NCBI RefSeq assembly: GCF_024490875.1
Contig: NZ_JACCLX010000009.1
Coordinates: 1 to 42,124 of the forward strand
DNA from: Methanocaldococcus sp.
Lineage (GTDB): Archaea > AGJL01 > Methanococci > Methanococcales > Methanocaldococcaceae
Direction of reading: 5' to 3'
DNA: 42,124 nt
Shown here: piece by piece, positions 10,935 through 32,591 of the stretch
How the letters are laid out: each line of letters starts with the position of its first letter
Numbering within the stretch: position 1 is the first letter of the stretch
Notes under the pieces: model-generated
Told to the model about the DNA's origin: nothing
The model's input: the letters and a program-made list of their open reading frames with translations, nothing else
Database searches by the model: none
Translations under genes and position numbers: made by a program

Positions 10935-11924
10935 TTGAGTAAAAAAACAAAGATTGAGGATGAATTAATAGTAAGAGAAGAGGCAGAAACTAATTGGGAT
11001 TATGGCTCTAATCCATATGAGAGAAAGATAGAGGATTTAATAAAGTATGGAGTAGTTGTAATAGATAAACCGAGGGGTCCAACATCTCACGAGGTTTCTA
11101 CTTGGGTAAAAAAAATATTGAATTTAAATAAGGCAGGACATGGTGGGACATTAGATCCAAAGGTTACTGGTGTTTTGCCAGTGGCATTAGAGAGAGCGAC
11201 AAAAACAATTCCTATGTGGCATTTACCTCCAAAGGAGTATGTTTGTTTGATGCATTTACATAGAGATGCTTCAGAAGATGATATATTAAGAGTATTTAAA
11301 GAATTCACTGGCAAAATTTACCAAAGACCTCCATTAAAGGCGGCAGTTAAAAGAAGATTAAGGATAAGGAAGATTTATGAATTAGAATTATTAGATAAAG
11401 AGGGGAGAGATGTATTATTTAGAGTTAAATGCCAATCTGGGACTTATATAAGAAAGCTATGCGAAGATCTTGGAGAGGCTTTGGGGACATCTGCACATAT
11501 GCAAGAACTAAGGAGAACTAAAAGTGGATGTTTTGAAGAAAAAGATGCTGTATATTTACATGATCTATTAGATGCTTATCATTTTTGGAAAGAGGATGGA
11601 GATGAGGAAGAGTTAAGGAAAATAATTAAACCTATGGAGTATGGTTTAAGGCATTTAAAGAAGGTTGTTGTTAAAGATTCAGCAGTAGATGCTATTTGTC
11701 ATGGAGCAGATGTTTATGTTAGAGGAATCTCTAAGTTAAGTAAAGGTATTGGGAAGGGAGAGACAGTTTTAGTTGAAACTCTAAAAGGGGAAGCTATTGG
11801 TGTAGGAAAGGCTTTAATGAGCACAAAAGAAATATTAAAGGCTGATAAAGGCGTTGCTGTGGATATGGAAAGAGTTTATATGGACAGAGGAACTTACCCA
11901 AGAATGTGGAAGAGGAAGAAATAA
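10935..11924 (+). CDS. cbf5: tRNA/rRNA pseudouridine synthase Cbf5 (TruB family)
   Basis: Catalytic subunit of the archaeal H/ACA RNP, which converts uridine to pseudouridine in rRNA and in tRNA position 55. In the 329-residue protein the catalytic aspartate is in GHGGTLDPKVTGVLPVALE, other conserved pieces are KAAVKRRLRIRKIYELE and CQSGTYIRKLCEDLGEALG, and the last 80 residues form a PUA domain (VVVKDSAVDAICHGADVYV). Translation starts at TTG 10935, behind GGTGA at 10926-10930. The small membrane protein gene just upstream is probably in the same operon. Confidence 0.96.
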   Translation: MSKKTKIEDELIVREEAETNWDYGSNPYERKIEDLIKYGVVVIDKPRGPTSHEVSTWVKKILNLNKAGHGGTLDPKVTGVLPVALERATKTIPMWHLPPKEYVCLMHLHRDASEDDILRVFKEFTGKIYQRPPLKAAVKRRLRIRKIYELELLDKEGRDVLFRVKCQSGTYIRKLCEDLGEALGTSAHMQELRRTKSGCFEEKDAVYLHDLLDAYHFWKEDGDEEELRKIIKPMEYGLRHLKKVVVKDSAVDAICHGADVYVRGISKLSKGIGKGETVLVETLKGEAIGVGKALMSTKEILKADKGVAVDMERVYMDRGTYPRMWKRKK

Positions 11925-11987: not shown

Positions 11988-12920
11988 ATGAAAATTGGAA
12001 TTACTGCTATAATACCACCAGAAATTATTTATTCTGCAGGTCATACATCTATAGACCTAAATAATTTAGTTCCACAATCGAAAATTTATCCTAAAAATAA
12101 ACTATGCGCATGGACTGCAACTTGGAGAGAATTAATTTTAAAAGATGAAATTAAAATTGATAAGTTAATTGTTGTTGCTGGTGGAGATTGTCAAAATTCT
12201 CTTGTTGATGCCGAAAAAATAGAGCTAAAGAAAAAAATACCAACATATTATTTTTTTTATCAATTTGGGGATAAAAAACATTTTAAAAATGAAATAAAAA
12301 AACTTATTGATTTTTTAGGTGGAAATATTGATAAAACTACTTTAAGAGAAGTTTATCAAATAAAAAAACTTGCGAAAAAAGTAGATGAATTATGCTATAA
12401 AGATAAAATAAATGGAAAAGATACCTTTTATATTACAATTTCTGCAAGTGATTTAAAAGGAGATTTAAATGCATACAAAAAAGAAATCTATAACATATTA
12501 AACAAAGATGAAAACATTGAATATAGTCATAGGATTGCTTTAATAGGAATCCCACCAATTTTTAGTGATTTTTATGAATACTTAAATGAAATAAATGTAC
12601 ATTGTGTTTATAATGAACTTGCTTATGAATTTGTAAGAATGGGAGGCGATTCAATAAAGAATATAGTAAATAGTTATTCTACATACAGTTTTGCAAATCA
12701 TATAACTAAAAGAATAAAAATCATAAAGAAAGAATTAAAAAGACGGAAAGTTGATGGTGTAATTCACTATACCCAAATGAATTGTCACCATAAATTAGAA
12801 GATGAAATTCTTAGAGAATTTATTGATTATCCTATGCTAACAATAGAAGGAGATATTCCCCAAAAAACACCAGAACAAACAAAGTTAAGAGTAGAAGCAT
12901 TTATAGAGCTATTGGGATAG
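11988..12920 (+). CDS. 2-hydroxyacyl-CoA dehydratase / BcrB-like Fe-S protein (HgdB-like), first gene of the island operon
   Basis: A 310-residue relative of the HGD-D family (2-hydroxyglutaryl-CoA dehydratase, benzoyl-CoA reductase and double-cubane reductases), which hold a [4Fe-4S] cluster and receive one electron from an ATP-driven activator. Likely cluster cysteines are Cys40 (LCAW), Cys68 (GDCQNS), Cys206 (VHCVY) and Cys266 (MNCHH). The C-terminal KVDGVIHYTQMNCHH and TKLRVEAFIELLG match the same segments of the paralogue at 31473-32591, but the family's longer N-terminal helical region is missing. The activator follows after 2 bases. Ribosome site AGGTG at 11976-11980. The substrate is unknown; presence in an operon with a base-exchange enzyme makes a nucleobase or its precursor a possibility (inference). 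Confidence 0.8.
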   Translation: MKIGITAIIPPEIIYSAGHTSIDLNNLVPQSKIYPKNKLCAWTATWRELILKDEIKIDKLIVVAGGDCQNSLVDAEKIELKKKIPTYYFFYQFGDKKHFKNEIKKLIDFLGGNIDKTTLREVYQIKKLAKKVDELCYKDKINGKDTFYITISASDLKGDLNAYKKEIYNILNKDENIEYSHRIALIGIPPIFSDFYEYLNEINVHCVYNELAYEFVRMGGDSIKNIVNSYSTYSFANHITKRIKIIKKELKRRKVDGVIHYTQMNCHHKLEDEILREFIDYPMLTIEGDIPQKTPEQTKLRVEAFIELLG

Positions 12921-12922
12921 TT

Positions 12923-13603
12923 ATGATAGGTATTGATGTAGGTTCAACAAATATAAAAATTGTAGATGGGAAAAGCTTTAAAAAATATCCCATAATTAAA
13001 TTGAATGAAATATTAGAAAAATATAATGATAAAGATGTTTTTGCAACAGGATATTTTAGAAAGAGATTTAGAAATCACATAACTGAAATTACTGCTGCTA
13101 TATACGGTGTTGATAAAGAAGTTGAAGTTATAATTGATGTTGGAGGACAAGATACAAAGATAATAAATACAAAAACATTAGAGTTTGTAATGAATGATAA
13201 ATGTGGAGCTGGTACTGGACTATTTTTGCAAACTATAGCAATGTATTTAGATGTTCCTATAGAGAACTTTGGAAAATATTACTCAAAAAATCCATTAAAA
13301 TTAAATAATACTTGTGCTGTTTTTTCGATTTCTGAAATAATTAACTATCTTGTGAATGGATATTCCGTCAAAGATATTATATCATCTGTAAATTACACTA
13401 TAGCAAAAAAAATAGATAACATGAACCCATTTGACTGCGACACTATTGCTTTAATTGGAGGAGTTGCAGAAAATAAGGCATTCGTGAAATATTTTAAAGA
13501 AATTACTGAAAAAGATATTTATGTTCCTAAAAATCCACAATTTATAAATGCAATAGGGGCGAGAAAATATGGGCTTGAATACGCAACAAAAAATAATCTT
13601 TGA
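12923..13603 (+). CDS. ATP-dependent activator / archerase of the HgdC (BadF/BadG/BcrA) type
   Basis: A 226-residue ASKHA-fold ATPase. Homologues form a dimer with one bridging [4Fe-4S] cluster and use ATP hydrolysis to push an electron at very low potential onto the partner protein. The phosphate-binding loop GIDVGSTNIKIV, second phosphate loop IDVGGQDTKII, and the two cluster cysteines Cys94 (DKCGAGTG) and Cys131 (NTCAVFSISEI) are all present, as is the adenosine loop LIGGVAENKAF. It should therefore be active with the HgdB-like protein encoded immediately upstream. The 3' end is overlapped by the GNAT gene by 35 bases. Confidence 0.88.
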   Translation: MIGIDVGSTNIKIVDGKSFKKYPIIKLNEILEKYNDKDVFATGYFRKRFRNHITEITAAIYGVDKEVEVIIDVGGQDTKIINTKTLEFVMNDKCGAGTGLFLQTIAMYLDVPIENFGKYYSKNPLKLNNTCAVFSISEIINYLVNGYSVKDIISSVNYTIAKKIDNMNPFDCDTIALIGGVAENKAFVKYFKEITEKDIYVPKNPQFINAIGARKYGLEYATKNNL

Positions 13604-14144
13604 AATTTATGATTTATATAAAAAATTTGAATTAATTGGAAGTAACAACAAAAATAAAAAGTCATCAAAACAAATAGAAAAAATTAAAAATAAAATTATA
13701 GTTAAAAATATTGATAATGTTAATTATGTTGACAAGGTTCAAGAGATATTGTTAAGTTATGTAGATATTTGGGGCTTTGTTTATAAATCATCAATAAAGC
13801 AATGGATTACGACTTCTAAAACTATAAATGTAGCAGGAATTTTCTATAAAAATAATTTGATTGGAGTTGTAGTTTATGGAGAAAAACCAAATTATCTAAA
13901 AATTAATTATATTGCAATAGACAAAAAATTTAAAAATAAATCTCTTGGTGTATACTTTATTGACTTTTTGGAAAAAAAAGCTAAAAAATTAAAAAAGAAA
14001 AAAATATATGCCGAGGTTCCTAAAGATAATGAAGGAGGGCTTAGATTTTTTATAAAAAATGGTTTTATAATTGAAGGTATTTTAAAAAACCATACAAGAG
14101 GTAATAAGGATTTAGTATTAATGGCTAAATATTTAGAGGGGTGA
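13569..14144 (+). CDS. GNAT-family N-acetyltransferase
   Basis: A 191-residue protein whose C-terminal 100 residues have the GNAT layout: an INYIAIDKKFKN strand and loop (motif A), the NKSLGVYFIDFLEKKAKK helix, and the motif B segment NEGGLRFFIKNGFIIEG. The acetyl-CoA pyrophosphate loop is weak (NKSLGV in place of the usual RGxGxG/A), so activity is likely but not certain. The N-terminal 70 residues are lysine/asparagine-rich and unlike known domains. It is tightly overlapped on both sides (35 bases with the activator, 4 bases to the GTG within the next gene's ribosome site), so it belongs to the operon. The acetylated target is unknown. Confidence 0.7.
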   Translation: MGLNTQQKIIFEIYDLYKKFELIGSNNKNKKSSKQIEKIKNKIIVKNIDNVNYVDKVQEILLSYVDIWGFVYKSSIKQWITTSKTINVAGIFYKNNLIGVVVYGEKPNYLKINYIAIDKKFKNKSLGVYFIDFLEKKAKKLKKKKIYAEVPKDNEGGLRFFIKNGFIIEGILKNHTRGNKDLVLMAKYLEG

Positions 14145-14146
14145 AT

Positions 14147-15070
14147 ATGGTAGAATTTTATGCATCATTGACAATTTCACCAGGTCAAATTAGAAAAATG
14201 GTTGAACTTTTAAAGAAACATGAGCCAAAAAAATGGGCATTTGAAAATGTAATCTTTACTCCGATAGTTTCATCAGAAGGAACTATTCAAGAAATCAAAA
14301 ATTTAAAGAAAAAATATAAAACAACTGTTATGTTTGATAGTGGAGGATACTATGTTCAACAAGGGAAGTTTGAAATACATCAACTATTTTCATTTTTGAG
14401 AAAATTTTATGAACATAATAAATGGGGAGAGTGGTATGTTTTACCAGATTCTCCACCAGTTTCATCTGATAGTGTAGAGACTGCTTGGGGAAAAGTTTAT
14501 GAGACAGTTTATTTTGCAAAGAGTTTTGCTGAAGAGTTTAACGGAAAACTAGAAAAAAAATTTGTTCCTGTAGTTCAGGGAATTAATAAAGAGATGATAT
14601 ATTATTGTGTTAAAAATTATGCAGATTTAAATGTTAGACGATTAGGTTTTGGAAGTTTTGGGACGTGTGGAAAAAATAATCAAATTAACCGATTAACTAA
14701 AGAAAGTTTAGAAAATTTGAAATATTTATCAATATTAGCAAAAGATTATGGATTTGAATTACATGCTTTTGGAATTGGGGGTCCAAGTTCTATAAATAAA
14801 ATTAGGGAATATATAGATAGTTTTGATAGCAGTAGTTGGAAAAAAGCTGGAGGCTTTGGGGATGTATTTTTACCGAATCAGCGAACAATCAATATCACGG
14901 GGAAAAGCTCAAGACGAGCTAAAAACTATATTGGTTATGACTATAAATTTGATGAATTAAGAAATGGACATGTGTGCTATTTTTGTAATCCAATAGATAA
15001 ATTGAAAAAATATGAAATTAATAGATGGTTACATAACATTATTGTATTATATGATATGGTGAAAAAATGA
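14147..15070 (+). CDS. tRNA-guanine transglycosylase-like base-exchange enzyme (DpdA-like)
   Basis: A 307-residue member of the TGT superfamily, which swaps a guanine for a 7-deazaguanine in a nucleic acid. The general acid/base aspartate is Asp64 in VMFDSGGYYV (TGT: TDSGGFQV). The VPVVQGINKE strand matches the substrate-binding VQGG loop. The second catalytic region HAFGIGGP...YIDSFDSSSW places a nucleophile candidate at Asp227. The zinc site reads His275-x-Cys277-x2-Cys280 with His296 downstream, so the first of the three usual cysteines is His. It lacks the PUA and other C-terminal domains of archaeal tRNA TGTs. With PglZ and HerA in the same operon, DNA is the likely substrate, as for DpdA enzymes (inference). 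Start ATG 14147 behind GGGGTGA. Confidence 0.82.
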   Translation: MVEFYASLTISPGQIRKMVELLKKHEPKKWAFENVIFTPIVSSEGTIQEIKNLKKKYKTTVMFDSGGYYVQQGKFEIHQLFSFLRKFYEHNKWGEWYVLPDSPPVSSDSVETAWGKVYETVYFAKSFAEEFNGKLEKKFVPVVQGINKEMIYYCVKNYADLNVRRLGFGSFGTCGKNNQINRLTKESLENLKYLSILAKDYGFELHAFGIGGPSSINKIREYIDSFDSSSWKKAGGFGDVFLPNQRTINITGKSSRRAKNYIGYDYKFDELRNGHVCYFCNPIDKLKKYEINRWLHNIIVLYDMVKK

Positions 15071-15783
15071 AAGGTAGTTTTCATATTCAAGAATCAGCAA
15101 AACCCAAAATTATAAGGATAATTTTAGAGAATATTAAATACGGTTGTGATTTACCCGACGATATTAAAGCAAGCACTATTAGAGCTAATAACATTATAAA
15201 AAATAAAATAATATCCGATAGTGAAGTTGAATTCCTTTTAGAAATGGATGAAATCACCTTTAACAATTATTTACATTATAAAATGTATTCATCAGAAGAG
15301 CCTATTGGATGGTCATACCGAAATGTAATAGATATACTTTACAATGAATACATTGAAAGAAAAGTAAATTATCAAGATATTGAACAAAAGGTAAAAGAAA
15401 GGGCTTATGAAGAAGGGTTAGGAAGCATTTCATTTAGTCAAAAAAGTGTCATAGGAGCTTTGAACTTCATTAAGTCACTTTATCCATCTCCAATTAATGA
15501 AAATAATGTATTCAATCTCAGAGATTATTGTCAGCCACATCTATTATTATGGGGTATTGATTACCTATATAAAAAACAGTGGGGAGAGGAATACGGTTCA
15601 TTAATGCTTTTAGATGAGAATAAAATTGAAGAACTCTGTAAGTTTTGTTTGATTGAAGAGAATACGATAGATAATCTCTTGAAAGATCTTGATTTCATCT
15701 ATGACTTCGTTGAGATTTCAATAAAAATGTTTGGAAAGTATGTGCGATTAAAAAGAACATGGACTTTTGAAGATGTGTTATAG
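15067..15783 (+). CDS. Uncharacterised island protein, 238 residues
   Basis: I do not recognise this protein. It is soluble and helix-rich by appearance, opens with MKGSFHIQESAKPKIIRIIL and contains scattered cysteines and no nucleotide-binding motif. A helical block near residues 80-120 (WSYRNVIDILYNEYIERK) could form a DNA- or protein-binding bundle. Its start overlaps the TGT-like stop by 4 bases (ATGA), and the small P-loop gene begins 9 bases after its stop, so it is a fixed part of the operon. By position it could be an adaptor between the modification enzyme and the ATPases, but this is only inference. Confidence 0.75.
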   Translation: MKGSFHIQESAKPKIIRIILENIKYGCDLPDDIKASTIRANNIIKNKIISDSEVEFLLEMDEITFNNYLHYKMYSSEEPIGWSYRNVIDILYNEYIERKVNYQDIEQKVKERAYEEGLGSISFSQKSVIGALNFIKSLYPSPINENNVFNLRDYCQPHLLLWGIDYLYKKQWGEEYGSLMLLDENKIEELCKFCLIEENTIDNLLKDLDFIYDFVEISIKMFGKYVRLKRTWTFEDVL

Positions 15784-15791
15784 GGGAGACT

Positions 15792-16289
15792 ATGGATTAT
15801 ATTTCTTTAATAAATTATATCAAAAGTAATTATTCATATGATTGGCTAACTTATAACCAAAAAAAAGCATATAAAAAATTGAAAGAATTTCTTATTTATG
15901 ATGATGTTATTAATCTTTATGGAAAAAAAGGGGTTGGAAAAACATTTTTAGGATGGGTATTTGCAAAAGATAACAACTTTATATATTTTGAAAATGAAGA
16001 AATATTTAAAAATCATAATGCAAGAAATATAAATACAATTATTGATAATGGAACTTTAGATGACTGGAGAGAAGTTAGAAGAATGGTTTCACTAAAAGCA
16101 AAAAAAGTAATATATATCTCAAAAGAGAAAATTTTAGATTATGGAGTAGAGTTAAAATTGAATTTATATGATGTGAAACAAGTGTTAAATAATTTATCTC
16201 CAATTATTGGAAAAAATATAAATGTTAATATTCAAAATTCGAATATTGATTTATGGAAAATTTTTAGAGGGAGGATATATGGATATTAG
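15792..16289 (+). CDS. Small P-loop NTPase of the island
   Basis: A 165-residue protein with a clear Walker A, LYGKKGVGKTFLGW (residues 42-55), and a possible short Walker B, NINTIIDNG, near residue 80. The length corresponds to a truncated AAA-type core without a lid domain. It precedes the very large ATPase and overlaps its start by 11 bases, so the two may act together, as paired ATPases often do in BREX-like systems (inference). The ribosome site GGGGAGA precedes ATG 15792. Confidence 0.75.
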   Translation: MDYISLINYIKSNYSYDWLTYNQKKAYKKLKEFLIYDDVINLYGKKGVGKTFLGWVFAKDNNFIYFENEEIFKNHNARNINTIIDNGTLDDWREVRRMVSLKAKKVIYISKEKILDYGVELKLNLYDVKQVLNNLSPIIGKNINVNIQNSNIDLWKIFRGRIYGY

Positions 16290-19200
16290 TGTATTAGAAC
16301 ATATAATAAATAAAAGTCCTGTAGTTGATACACAATCAGCTGAAAGTTTAATATATAATCCTGATTTAGTCGTAGATAAATATGAGAAACATTTAAAAAC
16401 ATACATAAGAGTTGATGATGAAGAATTTGATCGTAGATTTGTAAAAAAAATTAAAAAAGGAAAAACTGTTAAGGGATATATTTCCGCTCCTTATGGTTAT
16501 GGAAAGACAAGTAAAGCTCTAAGTTTATGGGAATATTGTAAAAATAATAATATATTAGCTGTTCCACCATTTAAGTTTGATAGAAAACTTGATACAATAA
16601 TGGATGCTGTCTATGGATGGACAAAACATGTTTATAAACATATATATCCTGAATATGTAGAAAAAATTGAAGAAATTTATAGAAAATATAAAACATTAAG
16701 TATAGAAAAAGAGATAGATGAACTGGCAAAAAAAGAACACTTAACAAAAGATGAAGCGAGAAGAATAATTAATAGTTTCATAGAAAGAGGTAAATTAATT
16801 ATGTCAATAACTCCAAAAGACCTAATGAACTTTCTAAAGGAAATATATGATCTTATAAAAGAACATTATGACGGATTAGCAATTTTTGTAGATGAAGTGC
16901 AAGGTATAAATAATATGGAAATTATTAACGATTTAAGAAACTTTATTTTTGAACTTAGTATTAGTAATATAGGATTAGGTATATTGTTCATAATTCCTGA
17001 TTATCAATTAGAAGATTTAAGCATAAGAGCTGGGGATTTAATTGACAGATTACGAAAAGATGGATTCTGTTTAAATTTAGCAAATATATATAATGTAGAT
17101 TTTGCAGAAAAATTATGGAAAAAATATGGCGAACTTTTAGGGTTTAATCCTTATGATATTATAACAAAGGATTGTTTAAGAAGTATTGGTGAGATATCTT
17201 CAAGAGATGATTTAGGTAAAGGTCCAAGAACGGTTATTGGAGCATTTAAGTGTGCTTGTATAAAATATAAAGAAAAATTAGAACCCTATTCTCTATTTGA
17301 TTTTGTTGACGATATCTTAAATGGCAAAATTGCATATATACAACAAAAATATTTAGATGCCTTAAATGAAGGTTTATCTTTGAATAAGGTTAATTCTGAA
17401 GAAAAAAGGAAAGTTATTAAATTGTTGGGTGCCTTTCCAAGAGGAGTTTCTGATGATATAATAAAAAAGTATGGTTTATATAAAGAGTTTGAAGAACTTT
17501 CAGATGCTTACTATGGAACTGAAATTCTTTATGCTATTGAAGGGTATTCATTAAAGGGTTTATTAGATGAGAGTTCTAATGATTATGTTGAACAACATAT
17601 AAGAAAATTTAGACATGTATTTAATGAATCATGGGAAGATGAAATGATTGATGCATTTGTAAATCATTTATTGCCTAAAATCTTTCCAAGAAGAAAAGGT
17701 CCTCAAATTATAGGATGGTCATTTAGTCCAGGAATTCCTATAAACTATGGATATTATCATCGATTAATTGGAACTTTTAATAAGAAATATCCTAATAGAA
17801 TAGTTAGTGTATATTCTTTAAAGAAAGAACCTGGAAAAAGAGATCTGGAGTTTATTAAAAATTTAGTAGGCGATATTTCATCAGATATTGAATTTAAATT
17901 TATATTAGATAAAAATATAGACAATAGTGATTTAATAATTAATTACAAAAAAGGAGAGGTAATTTTTAAATTTAATGTTTTAAAAAGAGTTGGAGAAAAT
18001 AATTTACCTGGTGAGTTAAAAAAACTTCAACAGTATGTTAAACCACAAGAAGTTACACCTATGTTTATGCTATGTTTATTAGATTATTTTGGTAAATTAA
18101 AAGAAAAAGAAGGAGAGTATATAAAATATGAAGGTGAGATTAAATTCCTAAGAGATATTCTTATAAAATATTTAAAAAGATTTTTGTTTTCTGATGAATT
18201 AGCAGAAAAGCATGAGATAAAAGCAAGATCAGAAAAGATGGTTGAAGAAATATTTAATAGAATCTGTGAATATAAATTTAAAGATTATAAAACATTAATT
18301 CATTCTACAAACTGGCAAAAAGATTTAGAGAGATATAGAATGTTATTAGAATCTCTACCAATTTCAAAGAGAAGAGGAGATAAATTTGAAACTACTAAAA
18401 AGAACTTAGTTTCTAAATTAACTGGTAGTAAAAATCCAAGTGTTGCAGGATTTGACGAAGAATGTAAAAGCGGAAAATGGAAGGATTTAATACACTTAGA
18501 AGAGTGGGGTAAAAAAGATAAAATTGTTGTTAGATTAAAAAAACATCCTCTTGAAGAAAAAATATTAAAAAATTTTATTGAAAAATGGACGCAACCAATA
18601 CATATTGATGAAATAATTAATTATGGAATGACCTTAGGATACACTCGAGAAGAAGTTGAAGAAATTTTAAAAATCCTTGAAAGTAGAAGATACATTGAAA
18701 TTAAAAAAGACTATATATTTAAGCTTGAGGAGATAACAAATACTGATGTTTTAAATAAATTTGATGAGGTTGAAAAACTTGCAAAGGATGTAGTAAATCT
18801 CTATAAAAAATATGGAAAGGATATTCCAAAGATTCCTATAAATCTATCTAAAAAAGAAGAGATTCTGAATCAGAAAAATTCTGATTTATTATACAAGGAC
18901 TTAGAACTTTTAGAAAGTTGGGAAAAAACTTTAAGAGGTTATTACGAAATAATTAAAAATGAAATAACTAAAAATAAGGAAGAATTACTAAATGAAATCT
19001 TAAAAACAAGAGAAAAAACTGATGAACTAAAAAGAAAAATAGAAGATTTAAAAGAGGATATTACAAAGACACATTATGCATTAAGTGATGTATCAAAACA
19101 TCTAAAAGAACTATTAATGAGAACAAAAAAGAAATGTAATATACTATCAAAAGAGTTATTAGAATTAAGAGAGATTATAACATCTTCAAGGAATCTTGAA

Positions 19201-20118
19201 GCTCTAGCAGAGATTTTAAAAACTGCTAATAAAAAAATGAATGAATTAAAAAAAGAATATGTCGATATTAATGAGAAATATAATAAGTTTAAATCCTGGT
19301 TAGCTATTCTTAGAAAATTGGAAAAATTATATGAAAAAATAGACACTTATAAAGAATATCTTGATATTGACAAAGAATATGAAAGATTCAACGAATTATT
19401 AAATGAAATAATAACTAACTTTGCAAGGGATGGTGAAAACTACCTGTATATGGATAAAGATGTTGAAAAAGACATTGAATTAATTGAAAGTAATATAAAG
19501 AAAAAAGAGAGTAATTTAAGAAATGAATTTAATAGGATTCAAGACGAAATAAAAACAAAAATGAACTTTTTATCTAATTCATTAAAATTGTTGGATATCC
19601 CTTCATATTCATACAGAGAAGCATTTAGTATTGAAGATAAAGAGACGGCATATCAAAATCTTGTAAGAAATGTAAGAACGTATCTTCAAGATTATGTTCT
19701 AAACAGAATATATGATTACATAGTATCATTAAAGACAGACGTAGAAATAAAATTGGACAATGATGAAAACTATCTAAAAACACTAAATGAGATAGAAAAT
19801 AAATTAAACAGCATAGATCTTGATGTTATAAATAATATCGAGAACATAGTAGATATTGTTGAAGAAGTGAAATCTAATATACTTGAAATATGGGGGGAGA
19901 TAGATAAAGTTAGAAAAGAGATAAAGAGAGAAATTATTGAAAAAAATAAATCTGATAAGCTAAAAGAAGAAGAAAGGAGAATAATTGAAGTATTAAATAA
20001 ATATGGTGAAATTTCAATTAAAGAACTTGCAAAACATCTAAATATGTCTATTGAGGGGACATTAAAATGTCTATTGAATATGGAGGAGAATATAAAAATA
20101 ATTGTAAGGAAGAAATAG
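16279..20118 (+). CDS. Giant AAA-type ATPase with coiled coil and C-terminal winged helix (BrxC/PglY-like)
   Basis: A 1279-residue protein, the scaffold-like ATPase of the island. Walker A is SAPYGYGKTSKAL (about residues 69-81) and Walker B AIFVDEVQ (201-208), with a RLRKDGF segment possibly acting as sensor or arginine finger. The middle is a long alpha/beta region without motifs I know. Residues about 860-1220 are strongly heptad-like, charged coiled coil. The last 45 residues resemble a winged helix (IIEVLNKYGEISIKELAKHLN). Size and architecture recall the BrxC/PglY ATPases of BREX systems, but I see no direct signature and call it only similar. The start is ATG 16279 behind GGGAGGATAT; the frame is open further upstream inside the previous gene. 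Confidence 0.78.
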   Translation: MDISVLEHIINKSPVVDTQSAESLIYNPDLVVDKYEKHLKTYIRVDDEEFDRRFVKKIKKGKTVKGYISAPYGYGKTSKALSLWEYCKNNNILAVPPFKFDRKLDTIMDAVYGWTKHVYKHIYPEYVEKIEEIYRKYKTLSIEKEIDELAKKEHLTKDEARRIINSFIERGKLIMSITPKDLMNFLKEIYDLIKEHYDGLAIFVDEVQGINNMEIINDLRNFIFELSISNIGLGILFIIPDYQLEDLSIRAGDLIDRLRKDGFCLNLANIYNVDFAEKLWKKYGELLGFNPYDIITKDCLRSIGEISSRDDLGKGPRTVIGAFKCACIKYKEKLEPYSLFDFVDDILNGKIAYIQQKYLDALNEGLSLNKVNSEEKRKVIKLLGAFPRGVSDDIIKKYGLYKEFEELSDAYYGTEILYAIEGYSLKGLLDESSNDYVEQHIRKFRHVFNESWEDEMIDAFVNHLLPKIFPRRKGPQIIGWSFSPGIPINYGYYHRLIGTFNKKYPNRIVSVYSLKKEPGKRDLEFIKNLVGDISSDIEFKFILDKNIDNSDLIINYKKGEVIFKFNVLKRVGENNLPGELKKLQQYVKPQEVTPMFMLCLLDYFGKLKEKEGEYIKYEGEIKFLRDILIKYLKRFLFSDELAEKHEIKARSEKMVEEIFNRICEYKFKDYKTLIHSTNWQKDLERYRMLLESLPISKRRGDKFETTKKNLVSKLTGSKNPSVAGFDEECKSGKWKDLIHLEEWGKKDKIVVRLKKHPLEEKILKNFIEKWTQPIHIDEIINYGMTLGYTREEVEEILKILESRRYIEIKKDYIFKLEEITNTDVLNKFDEVEKLAKDVVNLYKKYGKDIPKIPINLSKKEEILNQKNSDLLYKDLELLESWEKTLRGYYEIIKNEITKNKEELLNEILKTREKTDELKRKIEDLKEDITKTHYALSDVSKHLKELLMRTKKKCNILSKELLELREIITSSRNLEALAEILKTANKKMNELKKEYVDINEKYNKFKSWLAILRKLEKLYEKIDTYKEYLDIDKEYERFNELLNEIITNFARDGENYLYMDKDVEKDIELIESNIKKKESNLRNEFNRIQDEIKTKMNFLSNSLKLLDIPSYSYREAFSIEDKETAYQNLVRNVRTYLQDYVLNRIYDYIVSLKTDVEIKLDNDENYLKTLNEIENKLNSIDLDVINNIENIVDIVEEVKSNILEIWGEIDKVRKEIKREIIEKNKSDKLKEEERRIIEVLNKYGEISIKELAKHLNMSIEGTLKCLLNMEENIKIIVRKK

Positions 20119-21020
20119 AAAAAATAAAGACTCCATGTTACTTAAAAATAAAACATAAACTTTCTCTTCTATTTTTTGATTTTGAAGACATCTCTTATAA
20201 TGATTTTTGGTCGATGGTAGATAATCCAAATAAAAAACTTCCTCAGAAAAAATTTGTTATAACTGATAAATTTGACTATAGACTACCTATTTATGAAATA
20301 GATCATAATCCTTTTACGCCAGAATTAAATAAAATTATTAATGAAAAATATCATTTAATTGAGAAATATGTTAGGACACAAAAAGATATTAAGGATTTTA
20401 TCATTAATTATGTAAATACTAAAACCCCAAAAACTGTTATCTTGTATCTTATTGATGGATTATCTTATTGGGATTACATAAATGCAGAGATAAATTATAG
20501 TGCTGAACCTATATTTGTTAATGGAAAAACAACAACTGAAAATGGACTTAAAAATATAGTTTATGGAAAAAATGATATACCTATCGCAAAGGAACTTTAT
20601 AAATTTGGATATAAAGGATATGGACAAACATATTGGAATAGAAAAAATAAATTAACGGACATTTTATTTAGATACATAAGTGAAAAGAACATTTTTTATT
20701 ATGATGAGGATATATACAACATCATCACAGAAAATAAATTATTAAAAAAATATATTCAAATTTATAAGATTGGATTAGATGATGATGCACATAAGTTAAG
20801 AGAAGTTAGTAAAAAAAGCATAATTAATAGAATAAAAGAAATATTTGAGAATGTAAATATCTTAATAGATCATCTAAATAAAACTGATCAGTCCTATCTC
20901 ATAGTAATTACTGCTGACCATGGTATAAAGTGGGACTTTACAAAAAAATATAAAAAAGGTTCTCATGGGAATATATCATTTGAAGAGTGTTTTGTGCCTT
21001 TAATTATAATTGAGGGGTAG
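20067..21020 (+). CDS. Compact PglZ-like protein (alkaline phosphatase superfamily)
   Basis: A 317-residue metal-dependent hydrolase-like protein. The two-metal ligand set of the alkaline phosphatase fold is visible: Asp130 in LYLIDGLSYWD, a nucleophile threonine in GKTTTENGL (155-157), GLDDDAHK with Asp238-240 and His242, ITADHG with Asp284/His285, and SHGN with His300. PglZ proteins of BREX and phage-growth-limitation systems have this core, but are usually 700-900 residues; this one is the core with only a 120-residue N-terminal extension. It overlaps the giant ATPase by 52 bases, and a GAGGGG ribosome site lies inside that gene. HerA follows after 2 bases. Confidence 0.85.
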   Translation: MSIEYGGEYKNNCKEEIEKIKTPCYLKIKHKLSLLFFDFEDISYNDFWSMVDNPNKKLPQKKFVITDKFDYRLPIYEIDHNPFTPELNKIINEKYHLIEKYVRTQKDIKDFIINYVNTKTPKTVILYLIDGLSYWDYINAEINYSAEPIFVNGKTTTENGLKNIVYGKNDIPIAKELYKFGYKGYGQTYWNRKNKLTDILFRYISEKNIFYYDEDIYNIITENKLLKKYIQIYKIGLDDDAHKLREVSKKSIINRIKEIFENVNILIDHLNKTDQSYLIVITADHGIKWDFTKKYKKGSHGNISFEECFVPLIIIEG

Positions 21021-21022
21021 TT

Positions 21023-22183
21023 ATGTTATTTATTGGGAGAGAAAAACTAAAAGATAGGTTAGGTGAAGAGGTTTATATTGATGCTTCAAAATCTCATGCA
21101 ATTTTTATTTGTGGTAAAAGAGGTAGTGGTAAAAGCTATACATTGGGAGTTTTAGTTGAAGAACTTCAAGAAAAACATCCTGATTATTTAAAAATTATTA
21201 TTGATCCGATGGGAATATTTTGGACTATGGTAGAACCAAACGAAGAACAAGAAGAAAACCTTTGGGATTGGGATTTATATCCAGAAAGATATTCTATAAA
21301 ATTAATAGTTCCTGGGGAAATAGACAAAAGATTTGATGAAGATGTTATAAGAGAAATGAAAAATAGAGGAGTAGAATTCAAAAAACTTTTATTAAATCCT
21401 TCTGATATTTCAGCTGAGGGTTGGTGTGATTTATTTAATTTGAATATAAATGAAATGATGGGAATTGCGTTATATAGAGCAATTGATAATATTGGGAAGG
21501 ATTTTTTTACAATTGATGATATTATTTATGAAGTAGAAAGGGACACAAAATCTAAAGAAACTACAAAAGAAGCATTAATTAACCGTCTAAATATGGCAAA
21601 AAAATGGGGTATTTTTTCAAATGAATATATACCAATAGAAGAAATTTTTGAAAGAAACACAATAAATGTTATTGATTTGAGTGTTATTGAAAGTGGAAGA
21701 TATGGATTGAGAGATTTAATTGTATCGATAATTGCAAAATATTTATTTAACCAACGATTGAAATCAAGAAAAAAAGAAATGTTAAATTTACCATCAAAAA
21801 TGCCAAAAGTCTGGTTATTTATAGATGAAGCCCATAATTTTATTCCTTCTGGAAAATCAACATTGTCAAAAGAAATACTAATAAGATGGGCAAAAGAAGG
21901 TAGACAACCAGGATTAAATTTAGTCATAGCTACTCAACAACCCTCAGCAATTGATAATGAGGTTTTAAGTCAGTGTGATATTATTTTTGCACATAAAGTA
22001 ACAAATAGGGAAGATATAAATGCATTAAATAAACTTAACCAGGAGTATATGGGAAAAGAATTAAAAGTGTATATTAAAGATTTAAATAAAGGAGAATGTG
22101 TATTTATTGATGATGAAAAAGAATTTCTAAAAATAATAAAGATAAGACCTAGAAAAAGTAGGCATGGTGGAGGAGAAAAATAA
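21023..22183 (+). CDS. HerA/FtsK-type hexameric DNA translocase
   Basis: A 386-residue HerA-like ATPase expected to form a hexameric ring that moves along double-stranded DNA. Walker A CGKRGSGKSYT (residues 30-40), Walker B WLFIDEAHNF (264-273), sensor ATQQPSAI (303-310) and the arginine-finger region RWAKEGRQPG (288-297) are complete. It lacks the N-terminal HAS-barrel of the chromosomal HerA that partners NurA. This matches the shorter HerA versions in defence operons, where they pair with nucleases or other effectors. It is the last gene of the operon; no nuclease gene follows. Ribosome site GAGGGG before ATG 21023. Confidence 0.92.
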   Translation: MLFIGREKLKDRLGEEVYIDASKSHAIFICGKRGSGKSYTLGVLVEELQEKHPDYLKIIIDPMGIFWTMVEPNEEQEENLWDWDLYPERYSIKLIVPGEIDKRFDEDVIREMKNRGVEFKKLLLNPSDISAEGWCDLFNLNINEMMGIALYRAIDNIGKDFFTIDDIIYEVERDTKSKETTKEALINRLNMAKKWGIFSNEYIPIEEIFERNTINVIDLSVIESGRYGLRDLIVSIIAKYLFNQRLKSRKKEMLNLPSKMPKVWLFIDEAHNFIPSGKSTLSKEILIRWAKEGRQPGLNLVIATQQPSAIDNEVLSQCDIIFAHKVTNREDINALNKLNQEYMGKELKVYIKDLNKGECVFIDDEKEFLKIIKIRPRKSRHGGGEK

Positions 22184-30058: not shown

Positions 30059-30808
30059 ATGAACATTTTAGGGATAGATGTAGGTTCAACCACTACAAAA
30101 TTAGTTTTAATGGAATATAAGAAAATAGTGGATTACAAAATAGAAAATATTGGTGTTGCTGTTGATGAAAGAGATATTTTAAAGATGGTTAATGAGTTTG
30201 AAAAAAAATATAATATAGATAAAGTAGTTGCAACAGGATATGGAAGGCATAAAATAACTTTTGCTGATAGAGTAGTTCCAGAGGTTATTGCATTAGGTAG
30301 AGGAGCAAATTATTTCTTTAAGGAGGCTGATGGAGTTGTTGATATTGGAGGGCAGGACAGTAAGGTTATAAAGATAGATAAAGAGGGAAATGTTGTAGAT
30401 TTTATACTATCTGATAAATGTGCGGCTGGAACTGGCAAATTTTTAGAAAAATGCATAGAGATTTTAAAAATTGATGATGATATAAATAAATATAAATCAG
30501 ATAGAATTGCTAAAATTTCTTCAATGTGTGCCGTCTTTGCAGAGAGTGAAATCATCTCCTTATTATCTAAAAAAACTCCAAAAGAAGATATTTTAATGGG
30601 AGTTTATGAAAGTATTTGTAATAGAATCGTCCCAATGATAAATAGATTGGGAATAAACAATATTGTATTTAGTGGGGGTGTGGCTAAAAATAAAGTTTTG
30701 GTAGAGATGTTAGAGAAAAAGTCAAATAAAAACATCTTAATTCCAAAAGAACCTCAAATTGTTTGCTGTGTTGGAGCTATATTGGAAGCGGATAGGAAGG
30801 GATTTTAA
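30059..30808 (+). CDS. HgdC-type ATP-dependent activator (housekeeping copy)
   Basis: A 249-residue ASKHA ATPase of the BadF/BadG/BcrA group. The phosphate loops GIDVGSTTTKLV and VDIGGQDSKVIK, the cluster cysteines Cys121 (DKCAAGTG) and Cys157 (SSMCAVFAESEI) and the adenosine loop FSGGVAKNKVL are complete. It should energise the HgdB-like protein encoded at 31473-32591. In the sequenced methanococci I recall, such a pair is common, which makes this the conserved copy and the one at 12923 the accessory copy. Ribosome site GGTGAG before ATG 30059. Confidence 0.92.
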   Translation: MNILGIDVGSTTTKLVLMEYKKIVDYKIENIGVAVDERDILKMVNEFEKKYNIDKVVATGYGRHKITFADRVVPEVIALGRGANYFFKEADGVVDIGGQDSKVIKIDKEGNVVDFILSDKCAAGTGKFLEKCIEILKIDDDINKYKSDRIAKISSMCAVFAESEIISLLSKKTPKEDILMGVYESICNRIVPMINRLGINNIVFSGGVAKNKVLVEMLEKKSNKNILIPKEPQIVCCVGAILEADRKGF

Positions 30809-31322: not shown

Positions 31323-31472
31323 AATCTTTTTTACTTAATGATATTAAAAATTCTAATCACTAAATTATTATTAAAATTTTAAATGATAATGTTTTTATAT
31401 TCTTATGTTTCAAAAAATTTTGATGATTTTCAAAAATATGTTATTAAAAAATCTAATAATCTGGGTGATATG

Positions 31473-32591
31473 ATGGAATTAAATGCTATAAAAAAATTAA
31501 AAGAAAAATTTGCTAATAGAAAAGAACAACTTTACAAACAAAAAGAGGAAGGAAAAAAAGTTTTTGGAATGTTCTGTGCGTTTGTTCCAATTGAGTTAAT
31601 ATTAGCAGCAGATGCTATTCCAGTTGGTTTGTGTGGAGGTAAAAACGACACAATTCCAATTGCAGAGGAAGACTTACCAAGAAATCTCTGCCCTTTAATA
31701 AAATCATCCTATGGATTTAAGAAGGCAAAGTCATGCCCATACTTTGAAGCGTCTGATATAATTATTGGGGAAACTACATGTGATGGTAAGAAAAAGATGT
31801 TTGAGTTATTGGAAAGAATGGTTAAAATGCATGTGATGCAACTTCCATATATAAAAACAGAAAAATCTAAAGAATTGTGGATTGAGGAAGTTAAAAAACT
31901 AAAAGAATTAATTGAAAATGTAACTGGAAATAAAATTACCGAAGAAAAATTAAAGGAAAGTGTTGAAAAAGTAAATAGAATGAGAGAATTATTCTATAAA
32001 TTATATGAGTTAAGAGCAAATAAACCAACACCAATAAAAGGAATTGATGTTTTAAAGTTATTCCAATTAGCATATTTGTTGGATATTGATGATACGATAG
32101 AAATTTTAGAGGAGTTAATTAAAGAGTTAGAAGAAAGAGTTAAAAAAGGAGAAGGTTATGAAGGTAAAAGAATATTAATTACTGGCTGTCCAATGGTCGC
32201 AGGAAACACAAAAATCGTTGAATTAATTGAAGAAGTTGGAGGAGTTGTTGTAGGAGAGGAAAGTTGTACAGGAACAAGGTTCTTTGAAAATTTAGTTGAA
32301 GAACCAACTATTGAAAGTATAGCAGAGAGATACTTAAAAATACCATGTGCATGTATGTTCCACAATGATGAGAGAATTGAGAATATTAAAAGATTAGTCA
32401 AAGAGTTGAAAGTTGATGGAGTAGTATATTACACTTTACAGTATTGCCACACTTTCAATGTAGAGGGAGCAAGAGTTGAAGAAGAACTTAAAAAAGAAGG
32501 CATTCCAGTTATTAGAATTGAAACTGACTACTCTGAAAGTGATAGAGAGCAATTAAAAACAAGATTAGAGGCATTTATTGAGATGATTTAA
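31473..32591 (+). CDS. 2-hydroxyacyl-CoA dehydratase / BcrB-like Fe-S protein (housekeeping copy)
   Basis: A 372-residue full-length HGD-D family protein. It has the helical N-terminus missing from the island copy, then cysteines in [54 protein letters not shown] and QYCHTF, enough for a larger cluster such as a double cubane. The C-terminal [15 protein letters not shown] and RLEAFIEMI align with the island paralogue. The frame opens at 31383, but GGGTGAT at 31463-31469 supports ATG 31473. Reaction unknown; by family an ATP-driven low-potential reduction or dehydration. Confidence 0.9.

Follow-up and report, generated by a model that had tools for sequence, protein, structure and literature searches.

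The window, by which we mean the whole 42,124-nt stretch analyzed, is contig 9 of a 1.47-Mb Methanocaldococcus genome. The gene cbf5 is located at 10935-11924, and behind it are nine closely packed genes in the order HgdB, HgdC, GNAT, TGT-like, a 238-aa gene, small NTPase, BrxC-like ATPase, PglZ-like, and HerA. The features of this operon are as follows, with the BREX-Related Capture system abbreviated as BRC.

11988..12920, + strand: short HgdB-like reductase subunit of 310 aa, putative preQ0 nitrile reductase (Pfam HGD-D)
12105..12107, + strand: codon of C40, first conserved cluster cysteine of HgdB (at least 97% of 53 short HgdBs)
12189..12191, + strand: codon of C68, second conserved cluster cysteine of HgdB (at least 97% of 53 short HgdBs)
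12783..12785, + strand: codon of C266, third conserved cluster cysteine of HgdB (at least 97% of 53 short HgdBs)
12923..13603, + strand: HgdC-like ATP-dependent activator of 226 aa (TIGR00241 above curated cut-off, match to 4EHT, motifs)
13569..14144, + strand: GNAT acyltransferase, candidate acylase of the preQ1 amine (Acetyltransf_1)
14141..15070, + strand: TGT-like base-exchange enzyme of 309 aa (weak Pfam TGT/DpdA matches; TGT fold by Foldseek)
15067..15783, + strand: 238-aa BRC gene, at the position of the DUF4007 (BrxA-like) gene in the BRC paper
15792..16289, + strand: small P-loop NTPase, at the position of the BrxB-like STAND NTPase of BRC (weak nSTAND3/AAA matches)
16276..20118, + strand: BrxC-like ATPase of ~1280 aa (haloarchaeal ortholog in L047 above the Pfam BrxC_BrxD cut-off; ortholog in G007 69% identical)
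20067..21020, + strand: PglZ-like protein (weak Pfam PglZ match, under cut-off)
21023..22183, + strand: HerA-like translocase ATPase (Pfam DUF87, E=3e-13; PADLOC HerA, E=1e-27)

The hgdB/hgdC pair is real and intact. The HgdB ORF matches Pfam HGD-D (E=5e-30, 105.6 bits; cut-off 28.4), and the HgdC ORF matches Pfam BcrAD_BadFG (E=6e-24) and scores above the curated cut-off of TIGR00241. HgdC has the ASKHA motifs and two cluster cysteines, with GIDVGS, IDVGGQD, DKCGAGTG (C94), NTCAVF (C131), and GGVAEN all intact, and alignments indicated that C40, C68, and C266 of HgdB are the cysteines common to the rest of the family. The two genes are 2 bases apart, hgdC overlaps the GNAT gene by 35 bases, and the GNAT gene overlaps the TGT-like gene by 4. 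Pfam, TIGR00241, motifs, and coordinates thus agree with the original prediction, which had placed at the head of the operon a pair with intact cluster cysteines and ATP loops, joined by a 2-base gap or overlaps. The AlphaFold2 model of HgdB (m4040fb12faa4) has a pLDDT of 92.7. In Foldseek, only HadBC, benzoyl-CoA reductases, and DCCP (the double-cubane protein) match it strongly in the PDB. The alignments show that the HgdB of the operon lacks the extra cluster cysteines typical of double-cubane proteins, and its score against the double-cubane reductase model NF040772 (44 bits) is far under the cut-off of 350. The N-terminal extension of ordinary Methanococci HgdB is also missing. An ordinary Methanococci HgdC (30059-30808) and HgdB (31383-32591) are also present in the window, apart from the operon, and this copy carries the extra double-cubane cysteines.

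The original prediction of a base-exchange enzyme in the operon is borne out by the TGT fold found by Foldseek, for which the structure was predicted from an alignment built from the loci without the rows of plasmid records, and by the conserved residues D66, D103, and D229 together with the zinc-type residues H277/C279/C282/H298. The score of this protein against the DpdA model NF041059 is 16.9 bits (cut-off 200), and no further Dpd proteins were matched in the operon by Pfam, NCBIfam, or PADLOC.

Without HgdBC, the operon matches by gene content the published BRC system (Rakesh and Krishnan, 2026; PMC12839542), which comprises TGT, GNAT, BrxC-like, PglZ-like, HerA, small NTPase, and BrxA-like genes. 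As in BRC, the genes for TGT, GNAT, and HerA are all within one operon. The putative defense operon of the original prediction has therefore already been published, but the main text of that paper names neither HgdBC nor QueF, whereas the window operon has HgdBC; the mark was suggested there to be perhaps dPreQ0 alone (PMC12839542). PADLOC gave HerA/mad8 matches for one protein and otherwise marginal matches, and neither the 238-aa gene nor the small NTPase gene, each at the expected position, has a significant Pfam match. A scan of the genome collection with a TGT profile identified 33 further loci, mainly from Chloroflexi, Cyanobacteria, and Firmicutes with one from a haloarchaeon, besides one viral contig and two plasmids. 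The TGT, 238-aa, and BrxC-like genes are common to most of these loci (the 238-aa gene to nearly all), and the small NTPase (found in 16 BRC loci), PglZ-like, and HerA genes are often present too. No relatives of the TGT-like protein were found in phage records or, with a single sequence as the query, in viral contigs, and the profile search found one viral locus.

Several features adjoin BRC-type genes elsewhere. In a viral contig (L081:3195-5243), a SAVED-domain gene is followed directly by genes for a GNAT and a BRC-type TGT. Sigma-70-like proteins recur beside bacterial BRC-type loci (L053:290-2857, L070:18702-20051, and relatives; 23 loci), and one of these proteins has RNA polymerase alpha C-terminal domains. 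In the Desulfotomaculum BRC locus, an Mrr_N-domain protein is encoded between PglZ and HerA (L059:11674-12339).

The identical nine-gene set is found at the same site behind cbf5 in a second species (genome G007, locus L043), with 85%, 81%, and 69% identity to the window for HgdB, TGT, and the BrxC-like protein, respectively, which argues that the operon is more than a chance arrangement. Two other Methanococci, one of them of another family, retain no more than the beginning of short hgdB directly behind cbf5: G003 (L045:10510-10728), where the fragment contains a stop codon, and G034 (L044:9901-10116). Both fragments are likely vestiges of the same operon, lost or disrupted at this site, although the G034 contig ends close by. 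A third archaeal pair occurs in G764, a Halobacteriota archaeon with a 4.6-Mb genome, where the genes for short HgdB and HgdC immediately follow HerA in a BRC locus and the genome has no QueF. Two lineages thus retain the pair at different ends of the operon, at the head in the window and G007 and behind HerA in G764.

QueF reduces the nitrile of preQ0 to the amine of preQ1, and the synthesis of archaeosine in archaea does not require it. All five Methanococci tested have QueC, make preQ0, and lack QueF. PF14489 (QueF) has no match in G000 or G007, the window pair having the HgdB fold instead, and QueF was not matched in any archaeal control genome. Among the Halobacteria, the BRC TGT is present in eight of 394 genomes, and QueF is found in all eight of these vs. 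three of the other 386 (Fisher p=1e-14, with kinship ignored). In seven of the eight, QueF is directly 5' of the TGT gene, and the gene order is QueF-TGT-238aa-NTPase-BrxC-PglZ-HerA-GNAT; in the eighth, QueF adjoins GNAT. The BRC locus of a Haloplanus plasmid again includes QueF, with queC/E/D nearby. The NADPH-binding motif, which we take to mark true QueF, is matched strictly in six of 10 QueF copies and nearly in three more; this result disfavors the amidinotransferase QueF-L as the identity of these copies. Of the three haloarchaeal QueF genes outside BRC, one is followed by a TGT/DpdA-type-looking gene and then a PCNA-like gene (L099:1291-3225; G319), and this locus is possibly a provirus.

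The archaeal BRC slot thus holds either QueF or short HgdBC. The conversion of preQ0 to preQ1 by HgdBC is supported by the presence of QueF in this slot in haloarchaea and of HgdBC in the operons where QueF is absent (the window, G007, and G764), as well as by the folds and intact cluster motifs of HgdB and HgdC. A different action on the 7-deazaguanine mark, such as reducing or removing it, or a role as a redox sensor for defense with the amine coming from elsewhere, would fit the description of double-cubane relatives as reducing several small molecules. Such roles are highly improbable, as they leave unexplained why the haloarchaeal loci have QueF, an enzyme dedicated to reducing the preQ0 nitrile, in place of the pair, and why QueF and HgdB exclude each other in Firmicutes, as described below.

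The GNAT gene points to the same product. It is present in 31 of 38 BRC loci, fused on one ORF with TGT in 11 of these, and the seven loci without it are all cut by contig ends. An acyltransferase of this family requires an amine acceptor; preQ0 has no aminomethyl group, whereas preQ1 has an amine. The near-constant presence of GNAT is readily understood if the product is preQ1, and its demand for an amine acceptor supports the reduction of preQ0 by HgdBC. Based on these patterns and on comparisons with more than 600 other genomes, short HgdBC is quite likely an ATP-dependent Fe-S preQ0 nitrile reductase that takes the place of QueF and, in BRC, supplies preQ1 for a DNA mark made by GNAT and TGT. 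HgdC would use the energy of ATP to deliver low-potential electrons to the [4Fe-4S] cluster in HgdB. HgdB would add four electrons to the nitrile group of 7-cyano-7-deazaguanine (preQ0), yielding the primary amine found in preQ1. The TGT-like enzyme would then swap preQ1 for guanine in DNA. GNAT would probably acylate the amine, before or after this insertion, resulting in an acylaminomethyl-7-deazaguanine self-mark, and the BREX/HerA-like genes would act upon unmarked DNA. Our inferences are the chemistry itself, what GNAT acylates, the sequence of events, the role in defense, and DNA as the target, the last because of the BRC context and the resemblance to Dpd. The base dPreQ1 is known in DNA from HVTV-1 and phage Dp-1 (PMC6884629).

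Relatives of the short pair in bacteria provide a second line of evidence. In 260 genomes from the phylum of G057 (Firmicutes), searched for short HgdB, QueF, and QueC with a composite profile and four candidates scored per genome, short HgdB occurs in at least 51 genomes and QueF in at least 42 among the matches listed, with both in none. Among the same matches, 58 genomes have QueC, and 57 of these carry either short HgdB (40 genomes) or QueF (17 genomes) but not both. Where all candidates in a genome were scored, short HgdB is found in 14 genomes and QueF in 24, with zero overlap. This mutual exclusion supports the reduction of preQ0 by HgdBC, but it is partly due to shared ancestry, of which its p-values take no account, and this counts against the proposal. 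When 57 genomes were arranged in a QueC tree, the QueF and short-HgdB labels clustered and required at least ~4 changes, suggesting a few switches rather than dozens.

The gene neighborhoods in these genomes are mixed. Three operons combine hgdBC with queuosine genes and thereby support the proposed reaction: the gene order in G889 is hgdB-hgdC-queC-queD-queE, a queuosine-precursor transporter gene (QPTR; TIGR00697 above cut-off) overlaps the hgdB start in G804, and a QueT transporter gene follows hgdC in G805. No QueC was found in G804 or G805 (of these two, every candidate was scored only in G804), which fits the uptake of preQ0 followed by its reduction. Most Firmicute pairs adjoin unrelated genes, often those for methylaspartate ammonia-lyase, methylaspartate mutase E, murI, or MBL hydrolase, and this counts against the proposal, as does the lack of a preQ1 riboswitch near 34 HgdBC-bearing loci. 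In L156 (83-1489), L173 (2-1492), and similar loci, an MBL-fold hydrolase gene accompanies hgdBC together with the gene for either methylaspartate ammonia-lyase or mutase E. A constant link between the short pair and the TGT-like gene, which the original prediction had proposed to check, is not borne out, since most of the at least 51 Firmicute copies are located elsewhere. Its relatives do lie mostly in unrelated operons, a pattern that the original prediction had set against itself, yet three adjoin genes for queuosine precursors. The central suggestion that the pair reduces a 7-deazaguanine precursor is strongly supported at the level of gene content by QueF in the haloarchaeal operons and the Firmicute exclusion.

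These neighborhoods, together with the clustered labels on the QueC tree, could also be explained if the pair were a metabolic reductase unrelated to 7-deazaguanines, with its position in BRC and its exclusion of QueF being coincidences of lineage. However, this explanation is unlikely, as it must account at once for the QueF swap in BRC loci and the pair at both ends of archaeal operons, and also for the three operons with queuosine genes and the exactly-one pattern in 57 of 58 QueC-positive genomes among the matches listed. The same operons bear on the timing of the reduction. Archaeal TGTs normally take preQ0, and the genes of the BRC operon are tightly coupled, such that HgdBC may reduce dPreQ0 already in DNA rather than the free base, with GNAT then acylating the DNA base. 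The active site of the HgdB family is buried, and members of the short clade also sit among ordinary preQ0 genes (G889) or next to transporters of the precursor (G804 and G805), an arrangement that suits the free base. These points make reduction within DNA unlikely, although the same question is left open for the viral QueF (PMC6884629).

Among bacterial BRC carriers, G047 and G057 have short HgdB and QueC without QueF, and their HgdB genes are outside the BRC loci. Eighteen other carriers have neither QueF nor short HgdB, which counts against the proposal; these would need salvage or another route, and G061 among them still has QueC. The genome-wide picture for QueF in bacterial carriers is mixed and not informative, since the enzyme also has a role in tRNA modification in these organisms.

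In the phylogeny, 53 short HgdBs and 26 ordinary Methanococci HgdBs fall on either side of a fully supported split. Residues conserved in at least 97% of the short HgdBs include C40, C68, C266, D23, N25, N26, W42, G66, D67, N70, E76, S154, D155, E210, Y230, H260, Q263, and D272, among others. The three BRC HgdBs cluster together inside the Firmicute set on a long branch, such that this placement may be wrong. The long branch counts against the proposal and, with ~30-36% identity to the Firmicute short HgdBs, suggests that the function of the BRC proteins could differ.

Taken together, these findings suggest that HgdBC probably serves tRNA modification in many anaerobic bacteria. With somewhat less confidence, we favor the broader reading that short HgdBC is a widespread second preQ1 synthase of anaerobic Firmicutes that was recruited to archaeal BRC, giving an N-acyl-dPreQ1 mark. 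If so, a gene pair can be assigned to the step from preQ0 to preQ1 toward queuosine in anaerobes without QueF, nitrile reduction joins the reactions of the HgdBC superfamily, and the expected BRC DNA mark shifts from dPreQ0 to acylated dPreQ1 of predicted mass. The literature searched, with subscription journals and preprints outside its scope, describes no HgdBC-type preQ0 reductase by title or abstract, and no paper joining queuosine and hydroxyglutaryl-CoA dehydratase was found.

Compared with known systems, the pair shares with QueF/QueF-II (TIGR03139, PF14489; NADPH-dependent) the proposed preQ0-to-preQ1 reaction, the place in the BRC operon, and the co-occurrence with QueC. However, QueF is an unrelated protein that uses a cysteine thioimide and NADPH, whereas HgdBC has the HgdB fold, an Fe-S cluster, and an ATP-driven activator. 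The HgdB fold, the partner ATPase activator, and the conserved cluster cysteines are shared with DCCP/DCCP-R (6ENO, 7YYL) and HadBC/HgdC, but DCCP has extra double-cubane cysteines that the window HgdB lacks, and the N-terminus of the latter is much shorter. Finally, the Dpd system (DpdA and partners) resembles the TGT-like gene of the operon in the proposed TGT-type insertion of a 7-deazaguanine into DNA, but the window protein scores far under the DpdA models and no other Dpd gene was recognized in the operon.
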